From: an uncultured Lachnospiraceae bacterium
Lineage (GTDB): Bacteria; Bacillota; Clostridia; Lachnospirales; Lachnospiraceae
NCBI GenBank assembly: GCA_902780385.1
Contig: CACZFF010000014.1
Span: 1 to 54,912, forward strand
DNA length: 54,912 nt
Reading direction: 5' to 3'
The translations under genes were made by a program, and so were the position numbers. This document shows positions 4,764 to 41,423 of this stretch, in pieces (the first letter of the stretch is position 1; the number at the start of each line of letters is the position of its first letter). The notes below the pieces were generated by a model. The model ran no database searches. It worked only from the letters and a program-made list of their open reading frames with translations, and had not been told where the DNA came from.

Positions 4764-4919
4764 TCCTCTTATATCCTTTCTCTGCAAAAGGCCGGCTCGC
4801 TTTTCAATTCCGGCACAGCAGCTTGCTTCGATTCAACGTCAAACAGAAGAATTTTAGCACACACTTGTTACTCGTGCAAGAATCTTTTCAATCTTTTTTA
4901 GACGATTCATTACAGCCGA

Positions 4920-25144: not shown

Positions 25145-25185
25145 TGAATATAGAAAGAGTGCCGCACCGAAACGGCACGGCACTC
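25145..25185 (-). terminator. Rho-independent terminator of rplS
   Basis: On the minus strand GAGTGCCGTGCCG pairs with CGGTGCGGCACTC around TTT (25185-25157) and is followed by TTTCTATATT. It lies 80 bp after rplS. Confidence 0.85.
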
Positions 25186-25266
25186 TGATAGGTGACCATT
25201 GCTCGAAAATAGTCGAAAAGAAATGCAAGGCATCTCTGTTCTTTATAAAACAGAAAATACTGCTGA

Positions 25267-25629
25267 TTATTTCTTTCTGTCGTCGATTCTGGCTTTGACT
25301 TTCGCCTTCTTGCCGCTCAGGCCGCGAAGATAGAACAGTTTCGCTCTTCTGACTTTACCTCTGCGGACAACATCAACTGCCTCTACGTTAGGGGAGTGGA
25401 TGGGCCATGTCTTCTCGACGCCGATGCCGTTGGAGATTTTCCTGACGGTGAAAGTGGTCCTTGCGCCGCCGCCCTGGATCTTGATGACTGTGCCTTCGAA
25501 GATCTGTACTCTCTCTCTGGTACCTTCCTTGATGCGGTTGTGAACGCGAACGGTGTCGCCTGTTGCGAACTGAGGCACCTCAGCCTTCAGCTGCTCTTTT
25601 TCCAGCTCTTTGATGATTTCGAAATTCAT
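25267..25629 (-). CDS. rplS: 50S ribosomal protein L19
   Basis: A 120-residue ribosomal protein at the 30S-50S interface. Motifs: [80 protein letters not shown]. Length is normal and AAAGGAG precedes the ATG. It is normally the gene after trmD; here 10.4 kb of exopolysaccharide genes lie between them. No clear terminator separates it from the last of those genes, so it may be transcribed from its own leader region, from the far upstream promoter, or both. Confidence 0.98.
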
Positions 25630-25856
25630 TATGATCTCCTTTCCACGCCGGACGTTCTTGCCTGCTCCGCTCCGGAAGCCTTCAGACCCAAAGGGCCGCT
25701 TCCATCATCGCTCTGTAAATAACGCGGATGCAATCGATCATCATCCGAACCTGTCGGCAGAGGACCGTCTTAAGTGAACAGAATGCGCGGCTTTTGCCGC
25801 AAAATAAAAAGCAACGTTAATAAACTACCATATCCCGCCGGATTGCGCAATACTTT
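25630..25856 (-). promoter_or_regulatory. rplS 5' leader region (possible L19 leader)
   Basis: This 227-bp spacer has no gene. On the minus strand it can form CGGATG/CATCCG around ATGATCGATTG, and GAAGC/GCTTC with an inner CCC-TTT-GGG, close to the rplS RBS. Autoregulatory leaders precede rplS in many Firmicutes. A weak promoter-like pair, TTGCGC-17-TAGTTT, lies near 25850-25810. The short hairpin GCGGCAAAAGCCGC (25790s) has no U-tract and does not look like a terminator. Confidence 0.35.
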
Positions 25857-27227
25857 TCAGTGCTTTTTTTTGTGTCTGTATACTTTATGGATGCCATTCC
25901 CGTCCGGCAGTACACCTTTCTGGGCCAGCGTGATAAATTCTGAACCGTCCGGACTGGTAATTGCGATTCCAACAGAAAATCCGTTCAGAAGATCCCGGGA
26001 ATAGGGAACCGATCCGGTGACTGTGATCTCTTTATCCGGCAGAAGATCCGACAGCCTGAGGTCCAGGGTCTGCTCGCAAATACACTTCTTTTTGTTAAAG
26101 ATATACATTCTGACCGGCCAGTCGCGGTACATGGGTGCCGCTCCGATATTATTGAAGGTAAAGTGGATCTGCAGTGTATCGTCAAGAAAATCCACCGTTG
26201 TCTGCAGGCGGCTCAGGTAGAGACAGTATCCGACATTTCTCAGGATCATCTCACTGCCGTTGGACTGCTGCTGCTCAGCATCGGGGCAGACAGGTCCGAT
26301 ATAGGACAAATGGCTGCTGCGGATCTGATCGAGGGTATCGGACAGATTGTCCATCAGAAGCGTATCCATGGGGATGGTATCCGTCATTCCGCCGCCGACA
26401 GGTGCTTTTTCCCAGACAGCCCCGGTGCGGGAGAGGTTTTCTGCCGTTGCCGCAGCGTCGCCGATCACATCTTTCCAGTTTCCGGCTGCCCTTGTGCCTT
26501 CTGCGTCATCCGCATCCGAAAGTGCTGCGGAAATACTGCCGCTCTGTAAAAGCAGGATATCTTCATCGCCGGAAAAAGCTTCTTCATACTGTTGTCTGTA
26601 TTGCTCGAGCACCTGCCCGGAAGGTATGAGGTCAGTCGCGGATTCAGCCGTCGCAGACCAGTCTCCGTTCTGCCCTACAGACCCGATTTCCACGTAGGAT
26701 ACAAAGCTGTCCTCCGCACACCATGCCGCCAGGGCGTCCAGAGCTTCCTGATGTGCTTTCAGGAAGGTCTCATCCCCGTAATCAGGCGCATACCCCTTTC
26801 CGGAGGCGTCCTTATAATCGACTCCCCTGCTTATGCTGCACAGCCAGTCCGGAACATCCCTGTGGGAATGCTTTGAGGGAAGATCGCACACAAAACGCAG
26901 GACCGCGTGCCTCCCGGCCTGCCGGTGTTCCTCGATGTGGTATTTCTCTTTGACACCTTCCCTGTCGAAAACGCCTTCCTGCGGTTCCCACTCCGAGAAG
27001 GGAAGCATGATAAATACAAGATCTGCCCCTTCGCAGTCCTCTTCAAGCTCCGCCCGCGGCGCATAGCCGGTCAGCGGATTTGCAGGGACATTTTCCGAGG
27101 CATCGTACAGAACGATGTCGTACAGGTGGTAACGGCCCGGCACAATATAGAATAACAATCCCATGATCAGGATCACCTGCACGGCGATCAGGATATAGGG
27201 AAGTCTTTTTCTGATAAAAGGTTTCAT
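25857..27227 (-). CDS. Membrane-anchored DUF4832-type glycoside hydrolase-like protein of the Pel-like cluster
   Basis: A 456-residue protein with an N-terminal membrane anchor (about residues 9-28), placing the rest outside the cell. The N-terminal part resembles TIM-barrel GH-like proteins: NPLTGYAPRAELEED, LPFSEWEPQEGVFDREGVKE and SFVSYVEIGSVGQNGDWSA. The C-terminal part (about 335-445) looks like a beta-sandwich DUF4832 domain (LQIHFTFNNIGAAPMYRDWP). I cannot assign catalytic acids with confidence. It starts 12 bp after pelG and is the last gene of the cluster, so it probably modifies, binds or trims the exported polymer. Its function is inferred from context only. Confidence 0.65.
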   Translation of the reverse strand: MKPFIRKRLPYILIAVQVILIMGLLFYIVPGRYHLYDIVLYDASENVPANPLTGYAPRAELEEDCEGADLVFIMLPFSEWEPQEGVFDREGVKEKYHIEEHRQAGRHAVLRFVCDLPSKHSHRDVPDWLCSISRGVDYKDASGKGYAPDYGDETFLKAHQEALDALAAWCAEDSFVSYVEIGSVGQNGDWSATAESATDLIPSGQVLEQYRQQYEEAFSGDEDILLLQSGSISAALSDADDAEGTRAAGNWKDVIGDAAATAENLSRTGAVWEKAPVGGGMTDTIPMDTLLMDNLSDTLDQIRSSHLSYIGPVCPDAEQQQSNGSEMILRNVGYCLYLSRLQTTVDFLDDTLQIHFTFNNIGAAPMYRDWPVRMYIFNKKKCICEQTLDLRLSDLLPDKEITVTGSVPYSRDLLNGFSVGIAITSPDGSEFITLAQKGVLPDGNGIHKVYRHKKKH

Positions 27228-27239
27228 ACAAAAAACGCC

Positions 27240-28766
27240 TCATCGTTTTCTCGGCCGCACTGCTCTCTTTCTCCCGTCCTTATTGTGCTGGGAAGTCTTT
27301 GCGGTGCCCTTTGCAACCCTGTTGCCAATCCGTGTAAACATTCTCTCAATCTGCGTGAAGCTGCCGCCGCCGGCCGCTGAGACCGCAGCCTGTCTTCCCA
27401 GAAGCAGATAAGGGAGACGCCTTGTGGACCACTCAAGACGCAGCAGGACAATCACAAAGTAGACGATCGCGCCCGCCATAAATCCAGCTCCGAAATAGGC
27501 GGTATCGCCGTGTGCAGCCTGCCAGATGGTAAAAAGGTTTGCCGTTACGGCAAAAGCACCTGTCGCAGTGACTGAACCGATATAGTCCTCAAAATACAGG
27601 AGGATCAGCATCATGGCATTGGCAATGGCATAGAGACCATAGCCGACACAGAGGGTACGGAAAATCCCCTTGCCCAGATCCATCATGCCCAGGGGCAGGA
27701 AGTCCATGATAAAGCCGCCGAAAACAACAAACAAAAGGGTACTGATGATCTGGCGGTAACCGCAGTAGACCAGCTCCCGGCTGAGGACCTCGACCATCCT
27801 GTCCTCGGCCGCCTCGATATCCTTAATGGAACCTCCGTCATTGTAGAGACTGTAGTACTGGCGGTATTCCGGATAAAAGCGCACTTCCACCGAGGTCACG
27901 AAACTGATGGTCGTGATCAGAATGGAAAAAAACGCTGTCAGCGACGGGATATCATAGCTGGGCGCCGCATAGAAAAGACCCATGATCTTTCTGTGGAGAG
28001 GTCCGAAATACATGATCACAATGTGACCGTAAAGACCCAGATTCACGAATATACTGGTCAGTGCCAGGGCACGGCACTTGTCAAACCACTGCAGATAAGT
28101 AAAAGGGCTCCCCTCTCCGTGGGGAAAATACCCCAGCATCAATATGTAATACCATATGCTCATGATCCCGTAGGCCAGGATCACGCAGAACATCAGGCTG
28201 AGCACCGTGCCGTGCCTGAAAAAGGCCAGCAGAAGAGCCAGAAGAAATCCCGTCAGCATGGATGCGGCGAAGCCCAGGGCGATCGAGCGGTAATCCTTGA
28301 GCGCCGACAGATAATTCATCTGTGTCCAGACGACGATCATGGTCAGGGCGAACCACATGCTCACGATCATATAGACAAGCGGAACTCCGGAAAAAAGCAG
28401 CACGATGCCATACACGATAAAGCAGGCCGGCAGCATGACTGCCAGAGCACCGTAAAAAGAGGGCATGATCCTCTCCCGTTTCCCCTCATAGAGCATATCC
28501 GATATATATCTGGTGAGGATCATGTTCATAAAGCTGGACACAAACAGTGAGACCAGCAGACTGTATGTCAGCATACAGTTCATGATTTCTCTCTCCCCCT
28601 GCGGCATTCCCGCAATCTGAGAGACAAAGGAAATCCCCAGCAGAAGGCACACACCCATGACCATGGGACCGATCGCCACCGCGCCTGCATAAGCATATGC
28701 GCGGCAGAGATTCAGCATGCCTTCTTTCTGAAAAAGCCTGTTCAGGCTAAAGCCTATCCCAGCCAT
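27240..28766 (-). CDS. pelG: PelG-like polysaccharide export/transport membrane protein
   Basis: A 508-residue protein with about twelve transmembrane helices, matching PelG, the MOP/Wzx-related membrane component that works with the PelF glycosyltransferase. The characteristic N-terminus MAGIGFSLNRLFQKE is present, followed by AYAGAVAIGPMVMGVCLLLG and MNMILTRYISDMLYEGKRER. The ATG at 28766 follows GGAGG at 12 bases; a longer frame would overlap pelF. The C-terminus ends in a short basic tail. Together with PelD and PelE it should form the inner-membrane synthase complex. Confidence 0.9.
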   Translation of the reverse strand: MAGIGFSLNRLFQKEGMLNLCRAYAYAGAVAIGPMVMGVCLLLGISFVSQIAGMPQGEREIMNCMLTYSLLVSLFVSSFMNMILTRYISDMLYEGKRERIMPSFYGALAVMLPACFIVYGIVLLFSGVPLVYMIVSMWFALTMIVVWTQMNYLSALKDYRSIALGFAASMLTGFLLALLLAFFRHGTVLSLMFCVILAYGIMSIWYYILMLGYFPHGEGSPFTYLQWFDKCRALALTSIFVNLGLYGHIVIMYFGPLHRKIMGLFYAAPSYDIPSLTAFFSILITTISFVTSVEVRFYPEYRQYYSLYNDGGSIKDIEAAEDRMVEVLSRELVYCGYRQIISTLLFVVFGGFIMDFLPLGMMDLGKGIFRTLCVGYGLYAIANAMMLILLYFEDYIGSVTATGAFAVTANLFTIWQAAHGDTAYFGAGFMAGAIVYFVIVLLRLEWSTRRLPYLLLGRQAAVSAAGGGSFTQIERMFTRIGNRVAKGTAKTSQHNKDGRKRAVRPRKR

Positions 28767-28788
28767 TACTTCTATCAACCTCCAAGCC

Positions 28789-30207
28789 TTATAGCGATCC
28801 GTTCCATCTCCGGAACACTTCGTCATAGGTATCCAGATAATTGCGGATCATATCTTCGTGGCGGAAGTACTTCTCCGCGCGCTGTTTTCCCGTGCGCCCC
28901 ATCTGCAGGCGTCGGGCGCTGTTGCGGCACAGATCCTCCATTGCCCGCGCAAGCGCGTGCGGCTGCATGGGAGGGACACAGTAGCCGGCCTGTCCCAGCC
29001 TGTCTTCACCTTCGCCGTAGATCAGCTCCTTGCAGCATCCCACGTCTGTCGTGACGCAGGGACGTCCCGCAGCGAAAGACTCCAGGACCGAGAGAGGCTG
29101 TCCCTCGGAAATACTGGAAAGTACAGTAAAATCAAAGTCCCCCATATAATCCAGCACATTGATCGTGCCCATGAACACGGCATTTTTGATCCGCAGCTGC
29201 CGCATCAGTTCCCTGCATTCGAGGGCATATTCGGGATCATCCTCCGGTCCTGCGATAAAAAGTTTTACATCCTGAATATTGCGCTCTACTTCCGCGAAGG
29301 CATAGAGCATGGTCTTGACATCCTTGATGGGAGCAAGGCGCAGGATGGCTCCAATCTGGACTTTTCCGCCGGGCTTTCTCTCCGGGATCCCTGCGAAACG
29401 GTTATAGTGGATACCGTTGGCGACCGTCCTGCATTTGGAGGGATCCGCTCCGATCTCGACCTGGGTCCTGCCGGCCCTGGCGAAGAGACTGGTCACCATA
29501 GTAGCGCCGTCATAGGCGGCGGAGGACAGCATGTAGAAAAAGCTGATCCACATATCCTTGAAGTCCGGGAGCACCCAGTTTGCGCGAATGATCTCCTCCT
29601 CGCGCTCACGGGTATAGATCCCGTGCTCGGTAAGGAGAAAAGGCACCTTGTATCTGTATCTTCCCAGCCTGGCCAGAATTCCCGCATAGCCGGTCGCAAT
29701 CGTGTGATATACATCCGCCTCCGGCACATCTGAACACATCACGTGCAGAAGGGGCATCAGCATGGAACGCACCGTGTGGAAAAAATCCGAAAAAGCCGTG
29801 TAGGGATATTTTTCCCTGCAGATATCGGCGAGGATATCCACAAAATACTCACTCGCCATAAATTCGGCCGGAGAGATCCCCCTGTCCTGGAAAATATGAA
29901 AGAGTACTTCCCAGTCGGGTCTGCCGCACTCGACCAGAGCTCGCAGAGCCTTGAGCTCCTCCTGGTCAAAACGCAGGGGACGTCCGGATCTGCGGCCGCG
30001 CAGGGTATCTGTCAGAGAGACCTCCCTGACTTCCACCACATTGTCCGGAAGCTTGTAGCGGAACTTCCCGTTCTGCGAGGGATCCGCATTGAGTGCCCAC
30101 ACCACAAACTCATGCTGCGGCATCGCCTGTATATACTGGTGCATCCAGGAGGAAACGCCTCCTGTCACATAAGGGTAGCATCCCTCCAGAATCACGCAAA
30201 TTCGCAT
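28789..30207 (-). CDS. pelF: PelF-like GT4 family glycosyltransferase
   Basis: A 472-residue cytosolic glycosyltransferase. MRICVILEGCYPYVTGGVSS with SWMHQYIQAMPQHEF is the PelF signature, including the Gly-Gly donor-site loop. FLLTEHGIYTREREEEI fits GT4. The C-terminal Rossmann half has GAILRLAPIKDVKTMLYAFA, and the EX7E motif appears in SEGQPLSVLESFAAGRP. Known PelF enzymes use UDP-sugars (UDP-GlcNAc/GalNAc) to build the Pel polymer. The ATG at 30207 follows GGAG at nine bases. It lies between the deacetylase-like gene and pelG. Confidence 0.93.
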   Translation of the reverse strand: MRICVILEGCYPYVTGGVSSWMHQYIQAMPQHEFVVWALNADPSQNGKFRYKLPDNVVEVREVSLTDTLRGRRSGRPLRFDQEELKALRALVECGRPDWEVLFHIFQDRGISPAEFMASEYFVDILADICREKYPYTAFSDFFHTVRSMLMPLLHVMCSDVPEADVYHTIATGYAGILARLGRYRYKVPFLLTEHGIYTREREEEIIRANWVLPDFKDMWISFFYMLSSAAYDGATMVTSLFARAGRTQVEIGADPSKCRTVANGIHYNRFAGIPERKPGGKVQIGAILRLAPIKDVKTMLYAFAEVERNIQDVKLFIAGPEDDPEYALECRELMRQLRIKNAVFMGTINVLDYMGDFDFTVLSSISEGQPLSVLESFAAGRPCVTTDVGCCKELIYGEGEDRLGQAGYCVPPMQPHALARAMEDLCRNSARRLQMGRTGKQRAEKYFRHEDMIRNYLDTYDEVFRRWNGSL

Positions 30208-30298
30208 ATTGTCAAACTCCATGCCGGAACAGCCGCGGTCTGTCTTCAGGCACCGCTCCGTCCGGCCATGCCCATATTAATTACAGAAAAACAATTTG

Positions 30299-32137
30299 TT
30301 ACTGCCCCGGCCATCTGTTGATATTGATCGTCAGTTTCGGCTGGGCTGCTTTTACCAGATAGAGCCCGTCTGTCACCTCGGTGAGAGAGCCGCCGGTCAC
30401 GTGGCCCGGTTTTCCCTTGTTAATGCGCAGGTAGAACCACGCCTCGTCACAGAAGCCGCCCAGGGAGATGTCGATCCTGTTCCCGGTCTCCTCGCGGCGG
30501 ACCTGCAGGGCATCGTAGCGCTGCACGGCACCGGTCAGCTCACTTCCGGTCAGATTGCGGATCTGGGGCAGGGCTTTATTGAGCCATTCCACATAATCGG
30601 TGAGGCGTCGGAAAAGCTCCTCCCAGCCCATTGCTGCGCCGCGGTCTGTATCGAGGGTGTCATCCGGGTGCTGGAAATGTGTGTTGACACAGTGGAAATA
30701 AAGCTCACTCAAGGCCGCCGTGCGCATATAGTCATCCAGCACATAGCCGGAGATGATTCTGGGTGTCTGGACCATGCCGTCTTCCGTGACCGTGAAATCC
30801 TGATCATAGGAGACATCATTGTCATCTGGAAGATAAAGGCTGGCAATTGCCCGTATCTCGGGAAAATCCCGGGCAAGAAGGGTACGCCCCTCCCAGGAAA
30901 TGATATTTGACGGCGGGACATACACGTGGAACTCTTCATCCGGGAAGAGCTCATGGCAGAAGCCGGACAATTCCGTCAAGGCGTCGCGCATGGCATCGAC
31001 GCTGACCCACTGCCGATAGGAATCGTACTGTCCTATATAGTCGAAGTTTTCGGGAACCAGGGGCATGTGATTGTAGCCGTGGAAACCCAGTTCTCCGCCC
31101 TCACGCAGCAGCATATTGCCGAAATACTGGAAACGCTGAACATCCTTGTTGCGCGGGAACTCGCCCTCGACCCGGGCCGAATAATCCTCGATTACAAGAC
31201 CTGTATAGCGGATATTATATTTTTTGGAGAGATTATAGACATCTTTCCACCAGTGGTGGGTATAAAAGTCCTTGATGTCCATCCCGTAATCGTGCTGGAT
31301 GAACTGGCTGTCTCCCTCCGGAACAGGGGACGGGAAATCATCGATGTAAAAGGTGGAACCGTTGATGACCGGCCAGATGCAGTCATTTTCCAGAAGCGTA
31401 TAGGCCGCGCAGTGAAATCCCCTGTATGCTTTTTCCAGAAAGCTCAGGTTGTCAAAAACGATCGTGCCGCTGCCCAGTGCCCTCCTCCAGATCAGGGGAG
31501 TATCGGAAGAACCGGCACTTTCCAGAAAGACCTCACAGTCATCGTCCAGGGTGACATCCAGGGACGAGCGATAGGGATCTGAAATGGACAGGTCTCTGCT
31601 GCATCCGGGCATGAGATCGCTGGTAAAATGCAGCCCTTCGACATAGGCAAGAGAATTGCCCATGGAAGTGATCCCGAAATGAGGCGCGACCGACATAAAA
31701 GTCTCTTCATTATAAGGAGGATAAAGAACGAGCAGGGAGTGTCCCTCCATGACCCAGTCCAGCAGTGAAGTCAGCCTGCTGCCCAGGGTGCTCAGATCTG
31801 TCACAGACAGGACCGCAATTTTCTTTCCGTCCAGGTCGGACTCGGCAAAATCCGATACCTTTTTTTCTTTATAGGGAATCCTCATCTGCGAGAGGATCGC
31901 GCTCATCTCCCGCCTTCCTTCCTTGCCTGTGGAATCTTTATCCCAGATCAGGATGGTCCCGGCGTTCTCCGGCACGACAGTTCCGGTCAGCTCGCCCTCT
32001 TCAAGGATGCGCACTGTGCTGTTCTTTCCTCCGTAAAGGACACTTCGGCCCACAGACAGGACAACAGCAAACATAAGCGCATAGATTACGAGAATCTCCA
32101 GCAGTTGCAGGAACCGCGGTTTTCTTTTTCTTTTCAT
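30299..32137 (-). CDS. DUF2194 deacetylase-like protein, Pel cluster (PelA deacetylase-type)
   Basis: A 612-residue protein with an N-terminal signal anchor (about 12-34). Residues 55-240 look like a Rossmann or amidotransferase-like domain (GTILIWDKDSTGKEGRREMS, LLDWVMEGHSLLVLYPPY). The central part resembles CE4-like deacetylases of the DUF2194/PelA type: STFYIDDFPSPVPEG supplies the catalytic/metal Asp pair, and GELGFHGYNHMPL the His-x-x-x-His metal ligands. A beta-rich C-terminus ends in KLTININRWPGQ. I infer partial deacetylation of the Pel-like polymer outside the membrane. In Gram-negative PelA, hydrolase and deacetylase are one protein; here the hydrolase is a separate GH114 lipoprotein. 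Confidence 0.82.
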   Translation of the reverse strand: MKRKRKPRFLQLLEILVIYALMFAVVLSVGRSVLYGGKNSTVRILEEGELTGTVVPENAGTILIWDKDSTGKEGRREMSAILSQMRIPYKEKKVSDFAESDLDGKKIAVLSVTDLSTLGSRLTSLLDWVMEGHSLLVLYPPYNEETFMSVAPHFGITSMGNSLAYVEGLHFTSDLMPGCSRDLSISDPYRSSLDVTLDDDCEVFLESAGSSDTPLIWRRALGSGTIVFDNLSFLEKAYRGFHCAAYTLLENDCIWPVINGSTFYIDDFPSPVPEGDSQFIQHDYGMDIKDFYTHHWWKDVYNLSKKYNIRYTGLVIEDYSARVEGEFPRNKDVQRFQYFGNMLLREGGELGFHGYNHMPLVPENFDYIGQYDSYRQWVSVDAMRDALTELSGFCHELFPDEEFHVYVPPSNIISWEGRTLLARDFPEIRAIASLYLPDDNDVSYDQDFTVTEDGMVQTPRIISGYVLDDYMRTAALSELYFHCVNTHFQHPDDTLDTDRGAAMGWEELFRRLTDYVEWLNKALPQIRNLTGSELTGAVQRYDALQVRREETGNRIDISLGGFCDEAWFYLRINKGKPGHVTGGSLTEVTDGLYLVKAAQPKLTININRWPGQ

Positions 32138-32227
32138 ATGTGAACTCGTATTTCAAAAATAATGTGACTATTCCGGACCACCGCTTTATGGAAGCGAGGG
32201 TCTTTCCCATCGGAATAAACAGTAAGA

Positions 32228-33184
32228 TCAGGCGCTCCAGAAGTCAATCTGCTCTCTGGCGGCAGGCGACAGATAAATACCGCTCTTCTGCACATTGCTG
32301 ATTATTTTCTTTACGCCCCTGTCATCCTGCGCCGCAGCTTTGGCGCGCAGGATCATCATGTATCCGTCTTCACCGTAGGGATCCATCGCCAGAATTCTTT
32401 GTCCGGCGGCTTCCGCTGCCCGGGTGTCGCCCTGCTGCAGGCAGATATTCCCGAGTCTCTTCAGGAGACGCATAGTCTCAGTCTGTGTCTTTTTCTTTAA
32501 AATCTTCTCTTTCCCATTTACAGAAGAGGACAGCCCGCGGCTTCCCGTCTCCTGCCATCCGATGTAATAGAGAAGTTTCTCCAGCATGCTACGGCAATGT
32601 GCCAGACGTTCCCCGCGCTCGCTGCTGTCGGGAATCCCGCTCTGCAGGTATTCCTCATCGAGATCCGCATATTCCTCAATGATCTGTGCACTGGCGGGAT
32701 GCTGCCGGTAGAGTTTTTCCATTCTTGAAATGCGCTGGGAATACTCACTGCGGAGCTCCACCAGAGCAGTGACCGCATAATGGACAACCTCTGTGTCATC
32801 ATTGACGCCCGCCGTACGCAGGGGCCGCACAAAAGGAGCAGGTCCTTCATGCAGGACAGAAAGAAGGAGACTTCTGCGCCGTACAGGCTCGCCGCTCTCC
32901 AGCACATCTTCGATAGGGAGGACGCCGGACATATCGTCATTGTCCATCCTGATACTCCGGTACACTTCATCCGTGATTCCGAAACGTCCGGTATCCGGTT
33001 CCTGGTCGGGCTTTTCTCCCCCCAGAATATGAAGTTCTGCCGCAAGGGCACAGACCGGACCCCAGAGAGGCAGCAGAAGGACAATGGGAAACATGGCGCT
33101 GGAAAAATGCATAACTCCCCTGCGCCGCGCCGTGATCATGCATACAGCCGCCACTATATGGAGTGCCATCAGTAAGATCGTCAT
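32228..33184 (-). CDS. pelE: PelE-like membrane TPR protein
   Basis: A 318-residue protein with two N-terminal membrane helices (about residues 2-20 and 27-49) followed by a helical, TPR-like domain with the repeat LKRLGNICLQQGDTRAAEAA near residues 240-270. This matches PelE, which links PelD to PelG/PelF in the membrane complex. Its ATG overlaps the pelD stop codon (ATGA), so the two are translationally coupled, consistent with a stoichiometric complex. The sequence between the membrane region and the TPRs is charged and weakly conserved. Confidence 0.8.
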   Translation of the reverse strand: MTILLMALHIVAAVCMITARRRGVMHFSSAMFPIVLLLPLWGPVCALAAELHILGGEKPDQEPDTGRFGITDEVYRSIRMDNDDMSGVLPIEDVLESGEPVRRRSLLLSVLHEGPAPFVRPLRTAGVNDDTEVVHYAVTALVELRSEYSQRISRMEKLYRQHPASAQIIEEYADLDEEYLQSGIPDSSERGERLAHCRSMLEKLLYYIGWQETGSRGLSSSVNGKEKILKKKTQTETMRLLKRLGNICLQQGDTRAAEAAGQRILAMDPYGEDGYMMILRAKAAAQDDRGVKKIISNVQKSGIYLSPAAREQIDFWSA

Positions 33185-35001
33185 GAAAGTGTCCTTTCCC
33201 GCAGTGCCGCATGCTCAAGAGCATCCTGAAACAGCCCGCATAGGATAGTAAAATGATTCATATACCAGAGACTGAGCTGATCCTGCTCAGCCTTTTCCAA
33301 AGTCACCAGGAAGGTTACCGGCCTGGTATCAACAGTATTGTGCTTCAAAGCCCTGTTATAACTGACCATGGAGGCATACATGGGCGCATTCTTGGAAAAA
33401 TGGATATTTTTCCATGTCCCGCCGCCGCGCACTGTCCTGAGCATCTCCTCAGACTCGGATAAATTGAAGGACTGGCGTCCCCCGCTGTCCAGACAGCAGG
33501 ACAGGAGAACCGCTTTTTTTCCGCCTGGATCAAGCTGGTAAATGGATACGGTATCATTGCGGAGGAGCTTGCGAAGTACCTGTACTGCCTCTACACACAC
33601 AGCCTCAGGCGTCCTCTGGGACATCTGACGCACCGCTCCGTAGATCCGGCTGTAGCTGTCCTCCTCATTGAGGATCTGTGCCCATAGATCTTTTCTGTTG
33701 GCCACACTGGTGCGATAAGCCTCATTAAGGAAGAGGTACTTGTTGCGGATCAGCTCATTTTCCTCCATGACAGAGCGCATCTGCTGCTCCTTCTTCTGGT
33801 GGCTGTAACCGCTGATCGCGCCTGCAGTCAGATAGTAGACAAAAGGGATCCAGTTTTCTACATTGTAGAAGAGGAGGAGCCCCGAAATACCCGTTTCGTT
33901 ATACCGCATGACAAGCATGGCACATTCCAGAATGGCAGCGGCAAAGCCCGCTGCGATCCCGTGCATCATGCCCATGAGGATGACAAAAATAACGCGCACA
34001 TCGACAATTTTGAAATAGACAGATGCTGAAGTGATCCGCGCCAGATATTCCGCCACGATGAACATTATGATCAGATCCAGCGCCGTGCCGGCCACTTTTC
34101 CAAACTTCTGTATAAAAACAAGGGCCTGTTCTTTCAGGGGGCTGGATTCTCCCGCATCCTCGATCAGGGCACTGTACTGCTCCGCTATTTCCTCTCCCCA
34201 GTCCATAGAAACCGGAAGTCTGTAGATTTCTTCCAGAAGACCGTCGCAATCCGCTCTGTCCGTCCTGGGAAAGCGCATGAACAATACGCCGCGTCTGGTC
34301 CTGTTAAATTTTTCCGAAAACTCGACTCTGGCGTCAGGACGGATCGAAAGCAGGACTGTCCGGAGTCCATCCAGCGTTCCGGTCTCCGATCCCGCCTTGT
34401 AAATACCCGGGCAGAAGGTCTTTTCCGATGTCATGCGCAGCAAAAGGACTATAAGTTCCTGCATAGAAAGAACAGTAATACCATTTTCTGCGCTGCCCTC
34501 CAGGCAGACCGTCTCACCGCGGCGCAGAGCGCCGAAGACCCGGCTGAGACGTCCGGCCGCAAGGCCGGAGCCGGTCAGGAAGGGGAGCCTGACGACCATG
34601 ATCTCCACCGGAGAAGAACCTTCTGCGGGGGAGGCCCACTTCCTGATCATGTCCCGATAGTCCGCAGGATCCGAACTCTCTGTCAGCACGATCATTCTGG
34701 AGACTCCATGATGACTGCACAGCTGAGCAATACGGTCGGTCTTTTCATTTTCATTAGAGGCATATCCGCCGTCAGCAAATTTCGTGACATGCCAGACAGC
34801 CCTGATCTCTCCAAGTTCAAAAACCTTGAGAAAATCATTGTCCGACTGATCTGCAGGAAACAGCCGCACTGTATCCGGCAGCACCTTCATGGCGCCGGCG
34901 GACTTCTGTCCGGTCACAAAAACCTGTGCTGTCTCCCCTATATATTGTAAAATCTCTTTTGAGAAAAGGCCTGTCTGGCCTGTTAAAAGGATTGTATCCA
35001 T
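33181..35001 (-). CDS. pelD: PelD-like regulator: degenerate SDR domain, four membrane helices and GAF domain, no GGDEF
   Basis: A 606-residue protein. Residues 1-270 form an NAD(P)-binding SDR/epimerase-like domain beginning MDTILLTGQTGLFSKEIL. The glycine motif is imperfect, and Tyr115 is followed by Lys at +6 rather than +4, so the YxxxK catalytic pair looks lost. Residues 305-400 contain about four membrane helices as in PelD, followed by a helical linker (401-440). Residues 450-600 resemble a GAF domain (SIYQLDPGGKKAVLLSCCLD). The protein ends there; classical PelD continues into a degenerate GGDEF domain whose RxxD site binds c-di-GMP. I infer that polymer synthesis is gated by another ligand or partner. 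The ATG at 35001 follows GGAG at eight bases. Confidence 0.82.
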   Translation of the reverse strand: MDTILLTGQTGLFSKEILQYIGETAQVFVTGQKSAGAMKVLPDTVRLFPADQSDNDFLKVFELGEIRAVWHVTKFADGGYASNENEKTDRIAQLCSHHGVSRMIVLTESSDPADYRDMIRKWASPAEGSSPVEIMVVRLPFLTGSGLAAGRLSRVFGALRRGETVCLEGSAENGITVLSMQELIVLLLRMTSEKTFCPGIYKAGSETGTLDGLRTVLLSIRPDARVEFSEKFNRTRRGVLFMRFPRTDRADCDGLLEEIYRLPVSMDWGEEIAEQYSALIEDAGESSPLKEQALVFIQKFGKVAGTALDLIIMFIVAEYLARITSASVYFKIVDVRVIFVILMGMMHGIAAGFAAAILECAMLVMRYNETGISGLLLFYNVENWIPFVYYLTAGAISGYSHQKKEQQMRSVMEENELIRNKYLFLNEAYRTSVANRKDLWAQILNEEDSYSRIYGAVRQMSQRTPEAVCVEAVQVLRKLLRNDTVSIYQLDPGGKKAVLLSCCLDSGGRQSFNLSESEEMLRTVRGGGTWKNIHFSKNAPMYASMVSYNRALKHNTVDTRPVTFLVTLEKAEQDQLSLWYMNHFTILCGLFQDALEHAALRERTLS

Positions 35002-35051
35002 TCTCACTACTCCATGCCGCTGCAAAAGCACGACATCCGATACGCCTTTCT

Positions 35052-36014
35052 TCAGTCATCCGGTAAAGTCAGATTCACATGCGGTGATATATAGAATCGG
35101 AAACCGTTTTTATCACAATAACGGCAGATTTTTTTCTCTACATCTTCATCCGTTGTATACTCCAGCAGAAATACGTCTATATCCGCCTTTTTACACGCTT
35201 TCAGATATTCTGTGTAATACTCATTCTCCTTTTTCGGCTGTTGACCGAACTTGTCCTTGTCATAATCGATGATCCTGCTGAATACAGTCTCCTGATTCAC
35301 ACCCCGGATCAGATCTTCCCGCTCTTCATCGATCAGTCTGGAGACAAAGGTATCCGCCCCGTTGACCAGGACGGGGAGACCGGCCTCCTGATACATTTCC
35401 AGAATATTGATCAGGGCGCCGTAGACATCTTCTTTCATGGAACGGTACTTTTTCTTTGCCTGCACCTGGTAATAAATATCCAGGTTATCCAGGAAGAGTC
35501 CGTCCACCTCGGGATCATTGGCCCTGATCCTGTCAACAAGTCCGGAGCCCGTAAATTTCTGCCACTTCTTCTGCGTCACATCCACCCAGTATTCATCCGG
35601 CCAGTTCTCATACTTGAAAAGGCACAGATCCTTATACTTGCTGAAATAATCCCTGTTGGTCTCAATAGATCCCACATTGAGATAGGAATAGACCACATGG
35701 CCTCTGGCGTGCAGCTGGGCAAGCTGGTCCGGGCGAAGCTCCTGCGCATCCACCACCACCAGATCATATTCATCAAAAAGATTCACATCAAATGATTTAC
35801 TGTCGATGCCCAGAAAGACACCGTAGCTCTCTTTCGAAGTATCACTGATTTCCACGTCCTCCGCGCCTTCCTCACCGCCGATTCTGCATCCTGTCAGGCT
35901 AAGCAGGGCACAGAGCAGAACAAGAAGCACAGACACGCACACTGCCCTCCTCTTTCTGCCGTCTCCGGACCGGTGTATATTTCTGCAGAGTCTGAATATC
36001 AATCTTTTCATCAT
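35052..36014 (-). CDS. GH114-like endo-galactosaminidase lipoprotein (Pel hydrolase-type)
   Basis: A 320-residue lipoprotein. A basic N-terminus and hydrophobic stretch end in the lipobox LLSLTGC (near residue 43). The mature part is a TIM-barrel of the GH114/TM1410-like family: YDLVVVDAQELRPDQLAQL, VVYSYLNVGSIETNRDY, EYWVDVTQKKWQKF and VDGLFLDNLDIYYQ, with candidate catalytic Asp residues in VVDAQ and LFLDNLD. GH114 enzymes cut alpha-1,4 galactosamine polymers such as Pel. It is the first gene of the cluster, and its ATG overlaps the trmD stop as TGATG; a GTG one codon earlier is an alternative start. Role: trimming or release of the polymer, inferred. Confidence 0.85.
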   Translation of the reverse strand: MMKRLIFRLCRNIHRSGDGRKRRAVCVSVLLVLLCALLSLTGCRIGGEEGAEDVEISDTSKESYGVFLGIDSKSFDVNLFDEYDLVVVDAQELRPDQLAQLHARGHVVYSYLNVGSIETNRDYFSKYKDLCLFKYENWPDEYWVDVTQKKWQKFTGSGLVDRIRANDPEVDGLFLDNLDIYYQVQAKKKYRSMKEDVYGALINILEMYQEAGLPVLVNGADTFVSRLIDEEREDLIRGVNQETVFSRIIDYDKDKFGQQPKKENEYYTEYLKACKKADIDVFLLEYTTDEDVEKKICRYCDKNGFRFYISPHVNLTLPDD

Positions 36015-36787
36015 CACCTGCGCCGTTCCTCCAGACGTTTCGCCCGCTCAATGCGCCTGCGGCGCTCTTCCATGATCTCAGGGTTGTCCTGTACAAACTT
36101 TTCATACAGATCCGGCCGGCGCTCCTTTGTAATCGCCAGAGACTGTTCAAAGCGCCACTCATCTACACGGGCATGGTCGCCGGAGAGCAGGACGGGAGGC
36201 ACTTCCTTTCCGTGCCAGACAGCCGGTCTGGAGTACTGGGGGTATTCCAGAAGTCCGTTCATGAAAGAGTCTGTATCCGCGGAATCCGTATTTCCCAGTA
36301 CGCCGGGGATCATACGGGACACCGCATCGATGATCATCAAAGCCGGCAGCTCCCCGCCGGTGAGGACAAAGTCCCCGATGGAAACCTCTTCCACGCCGAT
36401 CTCTTCCAGAGCCCTCGCATCGATTCCTTCGTAGTGGCCGCAGAGCAGGATCAGCTCCTCTTCCTGTGCTAGTTCCTTTGCCATCTGCTGGTCAAAGACA
36501 GGTCCAAGCGGCGACATATAGAGGACACGGGCAGGTCTGCCCAGCCGCTCTGTGATCTGCGCCTGAACATCCGAACAACAATCAAAAACAGGCTGTGCCT
36601 GCATCAGCATGCCGGCGCCGCCTCCATACGTATAATCATCGACTCTGTTGTGCCGGTTTTCTGTATAGCTCCGGATATCGACTGCGGAAAACTCCACCAG
36701 TCCCTTCTGCGAAGCGCGGCCCAGAATGCTCTCACCCAGTGCAGCTTCCACCATTCCCGGAAACAAAGTCAGAACATGAAACCGCAT
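36014..36787 (-). CDS. trmD: tRNA (guanine-N1)-methyltransferase TrmD
   Basis: A 257-residue SPOUT methyltransferase that makes m1G37 in tRNA. Trefoil-knot motifs: SYTENRHNRVDDYTYGGGAG, LLCGHYEGIDARALEE, VSIGDFVLTGGELPALMIID, then the C-terminal tRNA-binding domain with LLSGDHARVDEWRFEQSLAI. The start overlaps the rimM stop (TGATG) with a possible GTG one codon earlier, and its own stop overlaps the next start in the same way. The next gene is not rplS, as is usual, but the Pel-cluster hydrolase. Confidence 0.97.
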   Translation of the reverse strand: MRFHVLTLFPGMVEAALGESILGRASQKGLVEFSAVDIRSYTENRHNRVDDYTYGGGAGMLMQAQPVFDCCSDVQAQITERLGRPARVLYMSPLGPVFDQQMAKELAQEEELILLCGHYEGIDARALEEIGVEEVSIGDFVLTGGELPALMIIDAVSRMIPGVLGNTDSADTDSFMNGLLEYPQYSRPAVWHGKEVPPVLLSGDHARVDEWRFEQSLAITKERRPDLYEKFVQDNPEIMEERRRRIERAKRLEERRR

Positions 36788-37299
36788 CACAGATCCTCCA
36801 GTCCTGCCATGATATGGACTGTAATAAAGCCCTCCTCAGGCTGAACATCCAGGATACACTGCGAAATAGCCGGAAGAAGCAGGTCCTTCAGACCTTCTCT
36901 CTCGACTACATAGACATCGTTGGCACCTGTCTCGAGGACTTCCTTCAATGTTCCGATTTCATTGCCGTCCTCGTCGCGGACAGACAGACCGATCAGGTCT
37001 GCCACATAGTACTCATCCTCTTCGAGGGGGGCAGCGTCCCTGCGTTCCACCAGCAGGGGACAGCCGCGCAGGGCTTCCACGTCTTCGATCCGGTCCATGC
37101 CCTCAAAACCCAGGATCACAAACTGTTTAAAAAACTTCACGCTGCGGATCCTGAGAACGCGTTCGCTTCTCTTTTCCTTCAGGATCAGCTCCTTCAGGAT
37201 CTTAAAGCGCAAGGGATCATCTGTTGTCGGGTAGACTTTCACTTCTCCCCGAAGACCGTGCGGAGTCGTGATCACACCAACCTGAAAACGTTCAGTCAA
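36787..37299 (-). CDS. rimM: 16S rRNA processing protein RimM
   Basis: A 170-residue 30S assembly factor that binds ribosomal protein S19. The N-terminal beta-barrel shows RFQVGVITTPHGLRGEVKVY and PTTDDPLRF; the C-terminal PRC-barrel shows YYVADLIGLSVRDEDGNEIG, TGANDVYVV and LLPAISQCILDVQPEEG. Overlaps trmD by one base. A small hairpin (GGCGGCG/GCGCCGCC) occupies the 91-bp gap after khpA. Confidence 0.97.
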   Translation of the reverse strand: MTERFQVGVITTPHGLRGEVKVYPTTDDPLRFKILKELILKEKRSERVLRIRSVKFFKQFVILGFEGMDRIEDVEALRGCPLLVERRDAAPLEEDEYYVADLIGLSVRDEDGNEIGTLKEVLETGANDVYVVEREGLKDLLLPAISQCILDVQPEEGFITVHIMAGLEDL

Positions 37300-37390
37300 A
37301 TCTTATCTCCATTCTCCTGTCTGTGATTAAAAGAATAGAATGAACGAAGGCGGCGCAGAAACGCCGCCCTATATCATTCATATACTATCC

Positions 37391-37618
37391 TCAATCGATA
37401 TCCACATCGATCCGGTAATCTTCCTGCGCAGAGGCGGCTTTGACAACTGACCTGATCGCTCTTGCGATCCTGCCCTGCCTTCCGATTACCTTTCCCATGT
37501 CCGAAGGCGCCACATGAAGCTGCACCCGTATATTCCTGCCTTCTTTTTTCTCGGTCACGACAACTTCATCGGGATTATCAACAAGCGCTTTCGCAATCAC
37601 TTCTACCAATTCTTTCAT
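37391..37618 (-). CDS. khpA: KH-domain RNA-binding protein KhpA
   Basis: A 75-residue single-KH-domain protein with the GxxG loop in MGKVIGRQGRIARAIRSVVK. In Firmicutes it pairs with KhpB (Jag/EloR) as a global RNA chaperone affecting cell division. The ATG at 37618 is preceded by AAGGATTGTCT. Location between rpsP and rimM is the conserved one. Confidence 0.93.
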   Translation of the reverse strand: MKELVEVIAKALVDNPDEVVVTEKKEGRNIRVQLHVAPSDMGKVIGRQGRIARAIRSVVKAASAQEDYRIDVDID

Positions 37619-37710
37619 AGACAATCCTTCTAGACCCGGTACAAAATGTGTCGGATCTCATTGTCAGGCAATAGATATATAAATAATTGCGCATAAAAGG
37701 CGCGGAATTC

Positions 37711-37953
37711 TTATTTAATACCTGCCTGCTTGAACAGTTTTTTGACCACAGTTGTAGGCTGGGCGCCGTTCTTGAGCCACTTCTTAGCTGCCTCGACATC
37801 TACATCAACCGTGCCGGGATCAGTGTTGGGGTTGTAATGTCCGATCGTGTCGATCGCTCTGCCATCCCTGGGGGTAGAGGCATCTGCGACGACGATTCTG
37901 TAAAGCGGGACTTTCTTCTCACCGATTCTTGTAAGTCTGATTTTAACTGCCAT
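37711..37953 (-). CDS. rpsP: 30S ribosomal protein S16
   Basis: An 80-residue ribosomal protein: [40 protein letters not shown], and the C-terminal [16 protein letters not shown]. Full length, with a good GAGGAGG site before the ATG. It follows ffh by 66 bp. Confidence 0.98.
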
Positions 37954-41160: not shown

Positions 41161-41423
41161 TTACAGTCCCTTCGGAACTGTGACAGTAAACTGCCATGGC
41201 AGCGTGACTGCCTCCACCAAAAGAGTAAAAGTCGATTGCTCCGCATGGCGAGGCCATGCTCTCGCAATCGCCCCCATGTATTCGACAATCGACCCGCTCA
41301 TCCTCCGGATTTCGCGTGTCTTTTTGTCTCATACATGGGGGTCCGATCAAATGTCTGCACGTATGTGCGTGCGAGCACGCCCATACGCGCAGCCGCTTGA
41401 TCGAACTTTTACAGTAACTTGCG
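41161..41423. repeat. Longest copy of family B repeat in the window
   Basis: A 263-bp element flanked by TTACAGTCCCTTCGGAACTG at one end and TTTTACAGTAACTTGCG at the other. It contains CCCCCATGTAT paired with ATACATGGGGG, GCATGGCGAGGCCATGC, and the segment TTGATCG...CGATCAAATGT that recurs reversed at 14549-14635. The spacer between the GH25-like gene and ilvA (41139-41462) consists almost only of this element. A 46-codon reading frame (41301-41162, minus) runs through it and ends FTVTVPKGL. Confidence 0.7.

Follow-up and report, generated by a model that had tools for sequence, protein, structure and literature searches.

The window analysed here is a stretch of 54,912 nucleotides from an uncultured Lachnospiraceae bacterium (contig CACZFF010000014.1 of assembly GCA_902780385.1). 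Its minus strand carries, in this order, ffh, rpsP, a KH protein gene, rimM, trmD, the genes for a GH114 lipoprotein, PelD, PelE, a DUF2194 protein, PelF, PelG and a DUF4832 protein, and then rplS, ylqF and rnhB. The seven genes from GH114 to DUF4832, a 10.2-kb insert, occupy the trmD-rplS interval (Table 1). An earlier note on this DNA had read them as a Gram-positive Pel exopolysaccharide cluster lying exactly between trmD and rplS, and both the open reading frames (ORFs) and the profile matches bear this out. The GH114 gene starts at 36017, in a 4-base overlap with the trmD stop. The gene order around the insert is that of the E. coli-type rpsP-rimM-trmD-rplS operon, from which the window differs in having the insert and in being divided into segments by a hairpin (T1) and by a promoter in front of rplS. 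By recognition we take four of the genes to be ffh, rpsP, ylqF and rnhB; the KH gene is presumably of the khpA type.

The organization is that of a Gram-positive Pel locus, PelF adjoining PelG and the D-E-A-F-G order being present. Profile searches of the window proteins assigned PelF and PelG to NF038011 and PF16933, not to unrelated families. In the same searches neither PelD nor PelE reached a curated family cut-off; the two were named by homology and by a gene order common to other Lachnospiraceae pel loci. The PelD name also draws on a structure model, the N-terminal part of which was matched to SDR epimerases by Foldseek, and homology, gene order and the SDR-type model all agree with it. 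The pel genes have a GC content of 0.48-0.55, compared with 0.49-0.60 for the flanking genes, and a codon usage close to that of their neighbours, as expected from the earlier description of a cluster that does not look foreign; the GH114 gene is somewhat richer in AT.

The arrangement was then followed through a sample of 61 genomes of the genus, taken from a larger group (genomes are designated G, locus stretches L). A PelG match was found in 12. One of these, G014, has a remote PelG (33%) elsewhere in its genome and adjacent trmD and rplS genes. The remaining 11 form a tight clade: their rplS, where present in the assembly, is at least 97% identical to that of the window, against 87% for the next best match, and the corresponding values for trmD are at least 77% and 70%. 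In nine of the 11 (the window, G026, G009, G055, G037, G017, G010, G008 and G028) both flanks lie on one contig around the same seven genes in the same order and on the same strand. The presence of the insert in eight genomes besides the window disposes of a single-genome artefact. In G052 the locus is split over two contigs in a way consistent with the same arrangement, and G013 yields a pelD-pelG fragment only, with the pelG match broken in two. Among the 50 genomes outside the clade, 47 have trmD and rplS on one contig, and in 45 of these the genes are 91-267 bp apart (41 measured by gene ends; G004, G029, G039 and G051 by match ends), so that the adjacency proposed earlier as a rule holds in the genus. 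Larger gaps are found in G058 (1.0 kb) and G040 (4.1 kb). The G040 interval (L061:3906-8010) contains another insert, with a helicase/AlbA-like gene and a gene for a small membrane protein (named by eye), and has kept the rplS promoter.

Within the clade, the trmD/GH114 junction is a 4-base overlap in 3 of 10 loci, may be a 3-nt gap in one, and has an unsettled start in six. Mean identity is 77-84% for PelF, PelG and DUF2194, and 56-61% for GH114, PelD, PelE and DUF4832. Quick trees, drawn with no support values, group the window with L015 and L020, and L016 with L017, whether they are built from the seven pel genes or from the flanking rnhB and ylqF; distance correlations for the pel genes are moderate (0.49-0.94).

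Table 1. Features of the rpsP-rplS region of the window and the evidence for each
Feature	Position in window	Strand	Evidence
rpsP	37711..37953	-	ORF; kept in clade loci
KH protein gene (presumably khpA type)	37391..37624	-	ORF; kept in clade loci
T1, terminator-like hairpin between KH gene and rimM	37347..37370	-	scan; U run imperfect in window
rimM	36787..37299	-	TIGR02273, 1.3e-48
trmD	36014..36790	-	NCBIfam equivalog TIGR00088, 6.7e-90
GH114 lipoprotein, candidate galactosaminidase	35052..36017	-	PF03537, 2.2e-19; lipobox judged by eye
PelD: SDR-like part, transmembrane helices, GAF-like end, without GGDEF tail	33181..35031	-	homology, gene order, model
PelE (TPR)	32228..33184	-	sub-threshold TPR matches; homology and gene order
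DUF2194 protein, PelA-DA type deacetylase	30299..32137	-	PF09960, 3.2e-146
PelF glycosyltransferase, GT4	28789..30222	-	NF038011, 4.4e-107, above its cut-off
PelG exporter	27240..28826	-	PF16933, 4.4e-122
DUF4832 protein, candidate second Pel hydrolase	25857..27227	-	PF16116, 8.7e-9
rplS promoter, TTGCGC-17-TAGTTT with TRTGn	25822..25850	-	same place in 10/10 clade loci reaching it
rplS-leader hairpin, listed as terminator-like, poor T run	25786..25801	-	scan; alignment
core of the rplS leader, with GACG/CGUC and UGCC/GGCA as its paired arms	25647..25773	-	covariation analysis of alignment
rplS	25267..25629	-	NCBIfam equivalog TIGR01024, 3.4e-46
T2, terminator-like hairpin after rplS, with T run	25156..25186	-	read in sequence; conserved in alignment

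A PelG match was present in 71 of 397 genomes of the family. The rplS gene, searched for in the 69 of these other than G000 and G014, was found in 67; pelG and rplS share a contig in 12 of them, the nearest pair being 31 kb apart (G209), and lie on separate contigs in 55, which in broken assemblies is no proof of distance. Around pelG, 34 stretches of at most 20 kb each (L027-L060) contained no match to trmD or rplS. One of these, L056, has ffh-rpsP about 7 kb from pelG. At the level of the class, 16 of 391 genomes gave a PelG match, and rplS was searched for in 12 of the 13 genomes new to the sample (G712, a fragment match, was excluded). It was found in 11; three have it on the contig of pelG, each time more than 600 kb away, and eight do not. 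The earlier suggestion to look for pel genes in trmD-rplS intervals across the Lachnospiraceae thus led to 9 of 11 genomes of one clade, and the arrangement was seen in no other sampled PelG-bearing genome of family or class. The locus is also carried by a named relative, Sarcina sp. DSM 11001 (L068, NZ_FNFZ01000010.1), which NCBI places under Clostridiaceae although its locus groups with Lachnospiraceae genomes.

The second distinguishing trait of the clade is the end of PelD. Wherever the C-terminus could be read in PelDs of other genera, it extends some 100 residues past the end of the window protein (28 of 28: 22 among the family loci L027-L053, then L077, L079 and L080, plus L054, L057 and L060). 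The end is unreadable in L031, L041, L046, L051 and L052, the last of which is masked inside but nonetheless matches the tail (3e-14). All 25 aligned tails have an RxxD motif, with R and D unchanged throughout, followed by a degenerate GGDEF-like stretch; the remaining three (L054, L057 and L060) read RQSD, RQTD and RTSD. A profile of the tail region has diguanylate cyclase chains as its best matches, which are weak (6khu, 0.0027; 3ign, 0.15), and two of the 25 single tails give a weak Pfam match to PF00990. All ten clade PelDs (window, L015-L022 and L026) end before the tail, and none of these ten loci contains a tail remnant below E 0.1 with the 25 relatives' tails as queries (lowest 0.13). 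Given the lack of a remnant and the overlap of pelE with the pelD stop, we rejected the idea that PelD had been shortened by a recent frameshift. G014, of the same genus with pel elsewhere, has a tail match (2.7e-16) in the PelD frame. Its pelD (L025:14600-15844) has an in-frame stop inside the GGDEF-like tail.

The window PelD therefore lacks the GGDEF domain with RxxD by which Pel synthesis is gated by cyclic di-GMP (c-di-GMP), and has the features of class IV, an SDR fold and no GGDEF, the degeneracy of the SDR part being judged by eye. In its AlphaFold2 model (mean predicted local distance difference test, pLDDT, 77.8; predicted template modelling score, pTM, 0.49) there are an SDR-like part, long helices and, at the end, an alpha/beta unit that suggests a GAF domain. 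The model of the L077 PelD has an additional terminal unit (mean pLDDT 73.4, pTM 0.43). With both models Foldseek returned only SDR-type folds among the 50 matches listed, and so speaks neither for nor against GAF or GGDEF; a weak GAF match was seen in the PelD of 2 of 25 relatives.

The gene content itself is largely published and was discarded as a novelty (PMC7112168, PMC12345266). The separation of hydrolase from deacetylase and the DUF4832 gene, presented earlier as departures from known loci, are present in the window, but a separate deacetylase, an SDR-PelD and a DUF4832 gene had been described in Gram-positive pel loci in 2020 (PMC7112168). The pelDEADAFG locus of Bacillus cereus ATCC 10987 shares the core genes, the D-E-A(DA)-F-G order and the separate deacetylase and hydrolase (PMC7112168, PMC13254593). 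It differs in that its PelD binds c-di-GMP via a degenerate GGDEF with RxxD and its hydrolase is divergently transcribed; a site beside translation genes is not described in the available part of PMC7112168. The Streptococcus intermedius locus likewise has a class IV PelD (degenerate SDR, no GGDEF) and a DUF4832 hydrolase gene, but also SIR_1592-1594 (MgtC/ACT, polyP polymerase, CotH), and GH114 goes unmentioned in the accessible text (PMC12345266). The two lineages being distant, GGDEF loss in S. intermedius and in the clade was probably independent. In our limited literature search such loss was found reported specifically for streptococci (Whitfield 2020), not for this Lachnospiraceae group. 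Other Lachnospiraceae pel loci (L027-L060, L077, L079 and L080) have the core genes in most cases and DUF4832 downstream in many; unlike the window, they have a tailed PelD (28 of 28 readable), a mostly distant DUF4832, no GH114 match at 1e-4 near pel and no trmD or rplS nearby. The same literature search found, by title, no published report of pel between trmD and rplS. The cluster is thus of a known kind, in a new, inherited location.

The DUF2194 protein matches the B. cereus PelADA structure 9ZAU (2.8e-64), and 10 of 10 clade members retain the motif patterns for the PelA-DA catalytic residues (DD, HxxxH, P, R, H/D). The GH114 protein gives weak matches to GH114, Ega3 and PelA chains. The DUF4832 protein is 37% identical to the pel-linked DUF4832 protein of L077. 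Its gene is directly behind pelG in the window and kilobases away in most relatives that have one, being adjacent in L044 and L081. By analogy with SIR_1591, the S. intermedius DUF4832 protein, which is an active Pel hydrolase whose deletion is without phenotype (PMC12345266), it is a candidate Pel hydrolase, and the cluster would then have two.

The rplS promoter starts 6 nt after the DUF4832 stop, and a compact junction of 6-8 nt to its -35 element is found in 6 of 10 clade loci. An extended -10 pattern, composed after this promoter had been seen, occurs nowhere else in the 20-kb clade loci, including ffh-rnhB and the region upstream of GH114; an alignment of the other intergenic gaps showed nothing clear. 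The window as a whole has two matches to the pattern (the other at 4851-4879) against 0.05 expected. A like -10 element is present in 31 of 43 pel-free rplS upstream stretches, that of G014 being at another position. Downstream of the promoter lies a candidate leader RNA (25647-25850), aligned from 50 of the 61 genus genomes, 10 pel-bearing and 40 pel-free. Of the others, G011, G024 and G013 had no rplS match, G060, G039 and G051 were unusable or mis-parsed, G004 and G029 were not included, and the arms were not found in G050, G014 and G005. In a structure drawn from the same sequences on which it was scored, 89.3% of cells are paired, against 83.7% in shuffles and at most 44.7% in slid versions, and 37 cells show double changes against 10.8. 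For one of five measures, further pair types, the observed value of 11 does not exceed the 10.5 of shuffles, and in 22 rows helix 2 lacks its last pair. Folded as a single sequence, the window leader does not do better than shuffles (z 0.07), and its minimum-energy fold differs from the covarying one. The leader was rejected as Rfam L19_leader: RF00556 had no match in the window or seven relatives, nor in any of 13 members of the genus, for each of which 150 candidates were scored, the B. subtilis control being positive. No Rfam 15 family matched it in the stretches searched. At the other end of the segment, the T1 hairpin (-16.4 to -22.0 kcal/mol) is found in 10 of 10 clade loci; it is GC-rich, with a U-rich run that is often imperfect. 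Among six pel-free loci, some show hairpins resembling it.

With an rplS that has its own promoter and leader, and with T1 separating rimM from the KH gene, pel appears to form the last part of a rimM-trmD segment that ends before an independent rplS. Since no second rplS-type promoter was found within rimM-trmD-pel, pel may be expressed in a growth-linked way via rimM-trmD. The earlier note had placed pel under a growth-rate-controlled ribosomal promoter; a link to rimM-trmD may survive from that proposal, the remainder of which is weakened by the rplS promoter, the leader and T1. It is natural to assume that genes lying in a row of ribosomal ones share a ribosomal promoter, but the first does not imply the second.

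We tentatively favour, at close to an even chance, a joint explanation in which a working Gram-positive Pel locus moved once to the trmD-rplS seam, ungated by c-di-GMP and expressed with rimM-trmD. The relocation, to the junction bounded by the trmD stop codon and the promoter of rplS, would have taken place once, in the ancestor of this clade of rumen Lachnospiraceae, and inheritance would have been mostly vertical since then. PelF would polymerise N-acetylgalactosamine, and PelG would export the polymer with PelD and PelE; the DUF2194 enzyme would deacetylate it and the GH114 and DUF4832 proteins trim it. Loss of the receptor domain from PelD would leave synthesis ungated by c-di-GMP, and the amount of Pel would be set mainly by read-through from rimM-trmD, downstream of T1 as a partial terminator, while rplS would depend on a promoter and leader of its own. 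Both the relocation and the domain loss are traits of a single clade, and the shift of control from c-di-GMP to co-expression with rimM-trmD, attractive as it is, rests on that one clade. In favour of the joint explanation are the seven-gene insert on one contig in 9 of 11 clade genomes, the like inner groups given by the pel genes, rnhB and ylqF, the missing tail of 10 of 10 clade PelDs, four clade genomes without a GGDEF match, the retained PelA-DA motifs, the overlap of trmD and GH114 in 3 of 10 loci, and a search of ffh-rnhB that found no further promoter of the rplS type.

Several observations weigh against this explanation. Judged by its sequence, T1 should lower the transcription arriving from rpsP. 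Consensus-like promoter sites lie on the pel strand at 35791-35763 and 30846-30818 (eight such sites in total against 9.9 in shuffles, hence not enriched), and the end of pelE has a promoter-like site in the window that the other clade loci lack. The GGDEF identity of the tail is deduced from weak scores and a motif, and the GAF or SDR part of PelD could bind another ligand. The LFLDNxD motif is absent from one clade GH114, and the quick trmD tree places L020 apart from the window. GGDEF matches number one in each of G000, G026, G010 and G013, two in G052, seven in G037 and eight in G017, and are thus present in 7 of 11 clade genomes; the four with none are G028, at 98% completeness, and G009, G055 and G008, at only 79-84%. 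The pel-free G044 and G053 have one weak match each, so that the clade is not alone in its scarcity of c-di-GMP enzymes; other genus genomes compared have 32 (G014), 13 (G059) and 5 (G042). The pel locus is alike in clade members with and without GGDEF matches. The comparison genomes and the promoter-like sites lower the odds of the joint explanation slightly.

It is also conceivable, though we incline the other way, that the location has no regulatory meaning: the cluster would have landed in a seam made tolerant of insertion by the separate promoter of rplS, with pel itself run by an unrecognised promoter (inside trmD, for example) or by GAF/SDR control. The unrelated 4.1-kb cargo of G040, in the same seam and with the rplS promoter kept, fits this, as do the separation of rimM-trmD from rpsP by T1 and the weak promoter-like sites within pel. 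Harder to accommodate are the overlap with trmD in 3 of 10 loci, the compact rplS -35 junction in 6 of 10, the failure to find a conserved promoter upstream of GH114, and the retention of the arrangement in 9 of 9 clade members with testable contigs. A true operon in the sense of the earlier note, with a single transcript that starts at the rpsP promoter, takes in pel and rplS and ties matrix to ribosome synthesis, is improbable; the genes are co-directional and the scan listed nothing terminator-like in the stretch that separates the rplS promoter from the DUF4832 stop, but that promoter and the T1 hairpin are each found in 10 of 10 clade loci, the leader is shared by pel-bearing and pel-free members, and the leader hairpin (25801-25786) could halt read-through. 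Very improbable is a locus that decays or makes a polymer other than Pel, as the fast divergence of GH114, PelD, PelE and DUF4832 and the two-piece pelG match of G013 might hint, given the identity of PelF, PelG and DUF2194, the kept catalytic motifs and the PelF equivalog match.

If the joint explanation of a single move, freedom from c-di-GMP and expression with rimM-trmD is right, the clade might represent a natural rewiring in which second-messenger gating was exchanged for co-expression with ribosome-maturation and tRNA-modification genes, some cells perhaps lacking c-di-GMP synthesis, and matrix kept in step with growth; this broader view we regard as rather doubtful. Pel control without the PelD c-di-GMP domain is yet to be determined according to the accessible text of PMC12345266, and such a rewiring would supply the answer for one lineage. 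The clade offers a concrete testable case: the same machinery with the receptor domain gone and the genes attached to rimM-trmD.

Of the streptococcal/clostridial accessory set (cotH, PPP, DUF4956, DUF4832), only DUF4832 is among the seven genes, cotH and DUF4956 not having been searched for; in each of the 10 clade genomes searched, the VTC matches are on other contigs. Two tandem DUF2194 matches occur in pel loci of other genera (L027, L028, L029, L030 and L046), and single open frames with no intervening stop join DUF2194 to pelF in L067 and pelG to DUF4832 in L069. Upstream of the ffh segment, the minus strand of the window carries a Clostridiales-1 RNA at 41226-41411 (RF01699, 2.9e-18).

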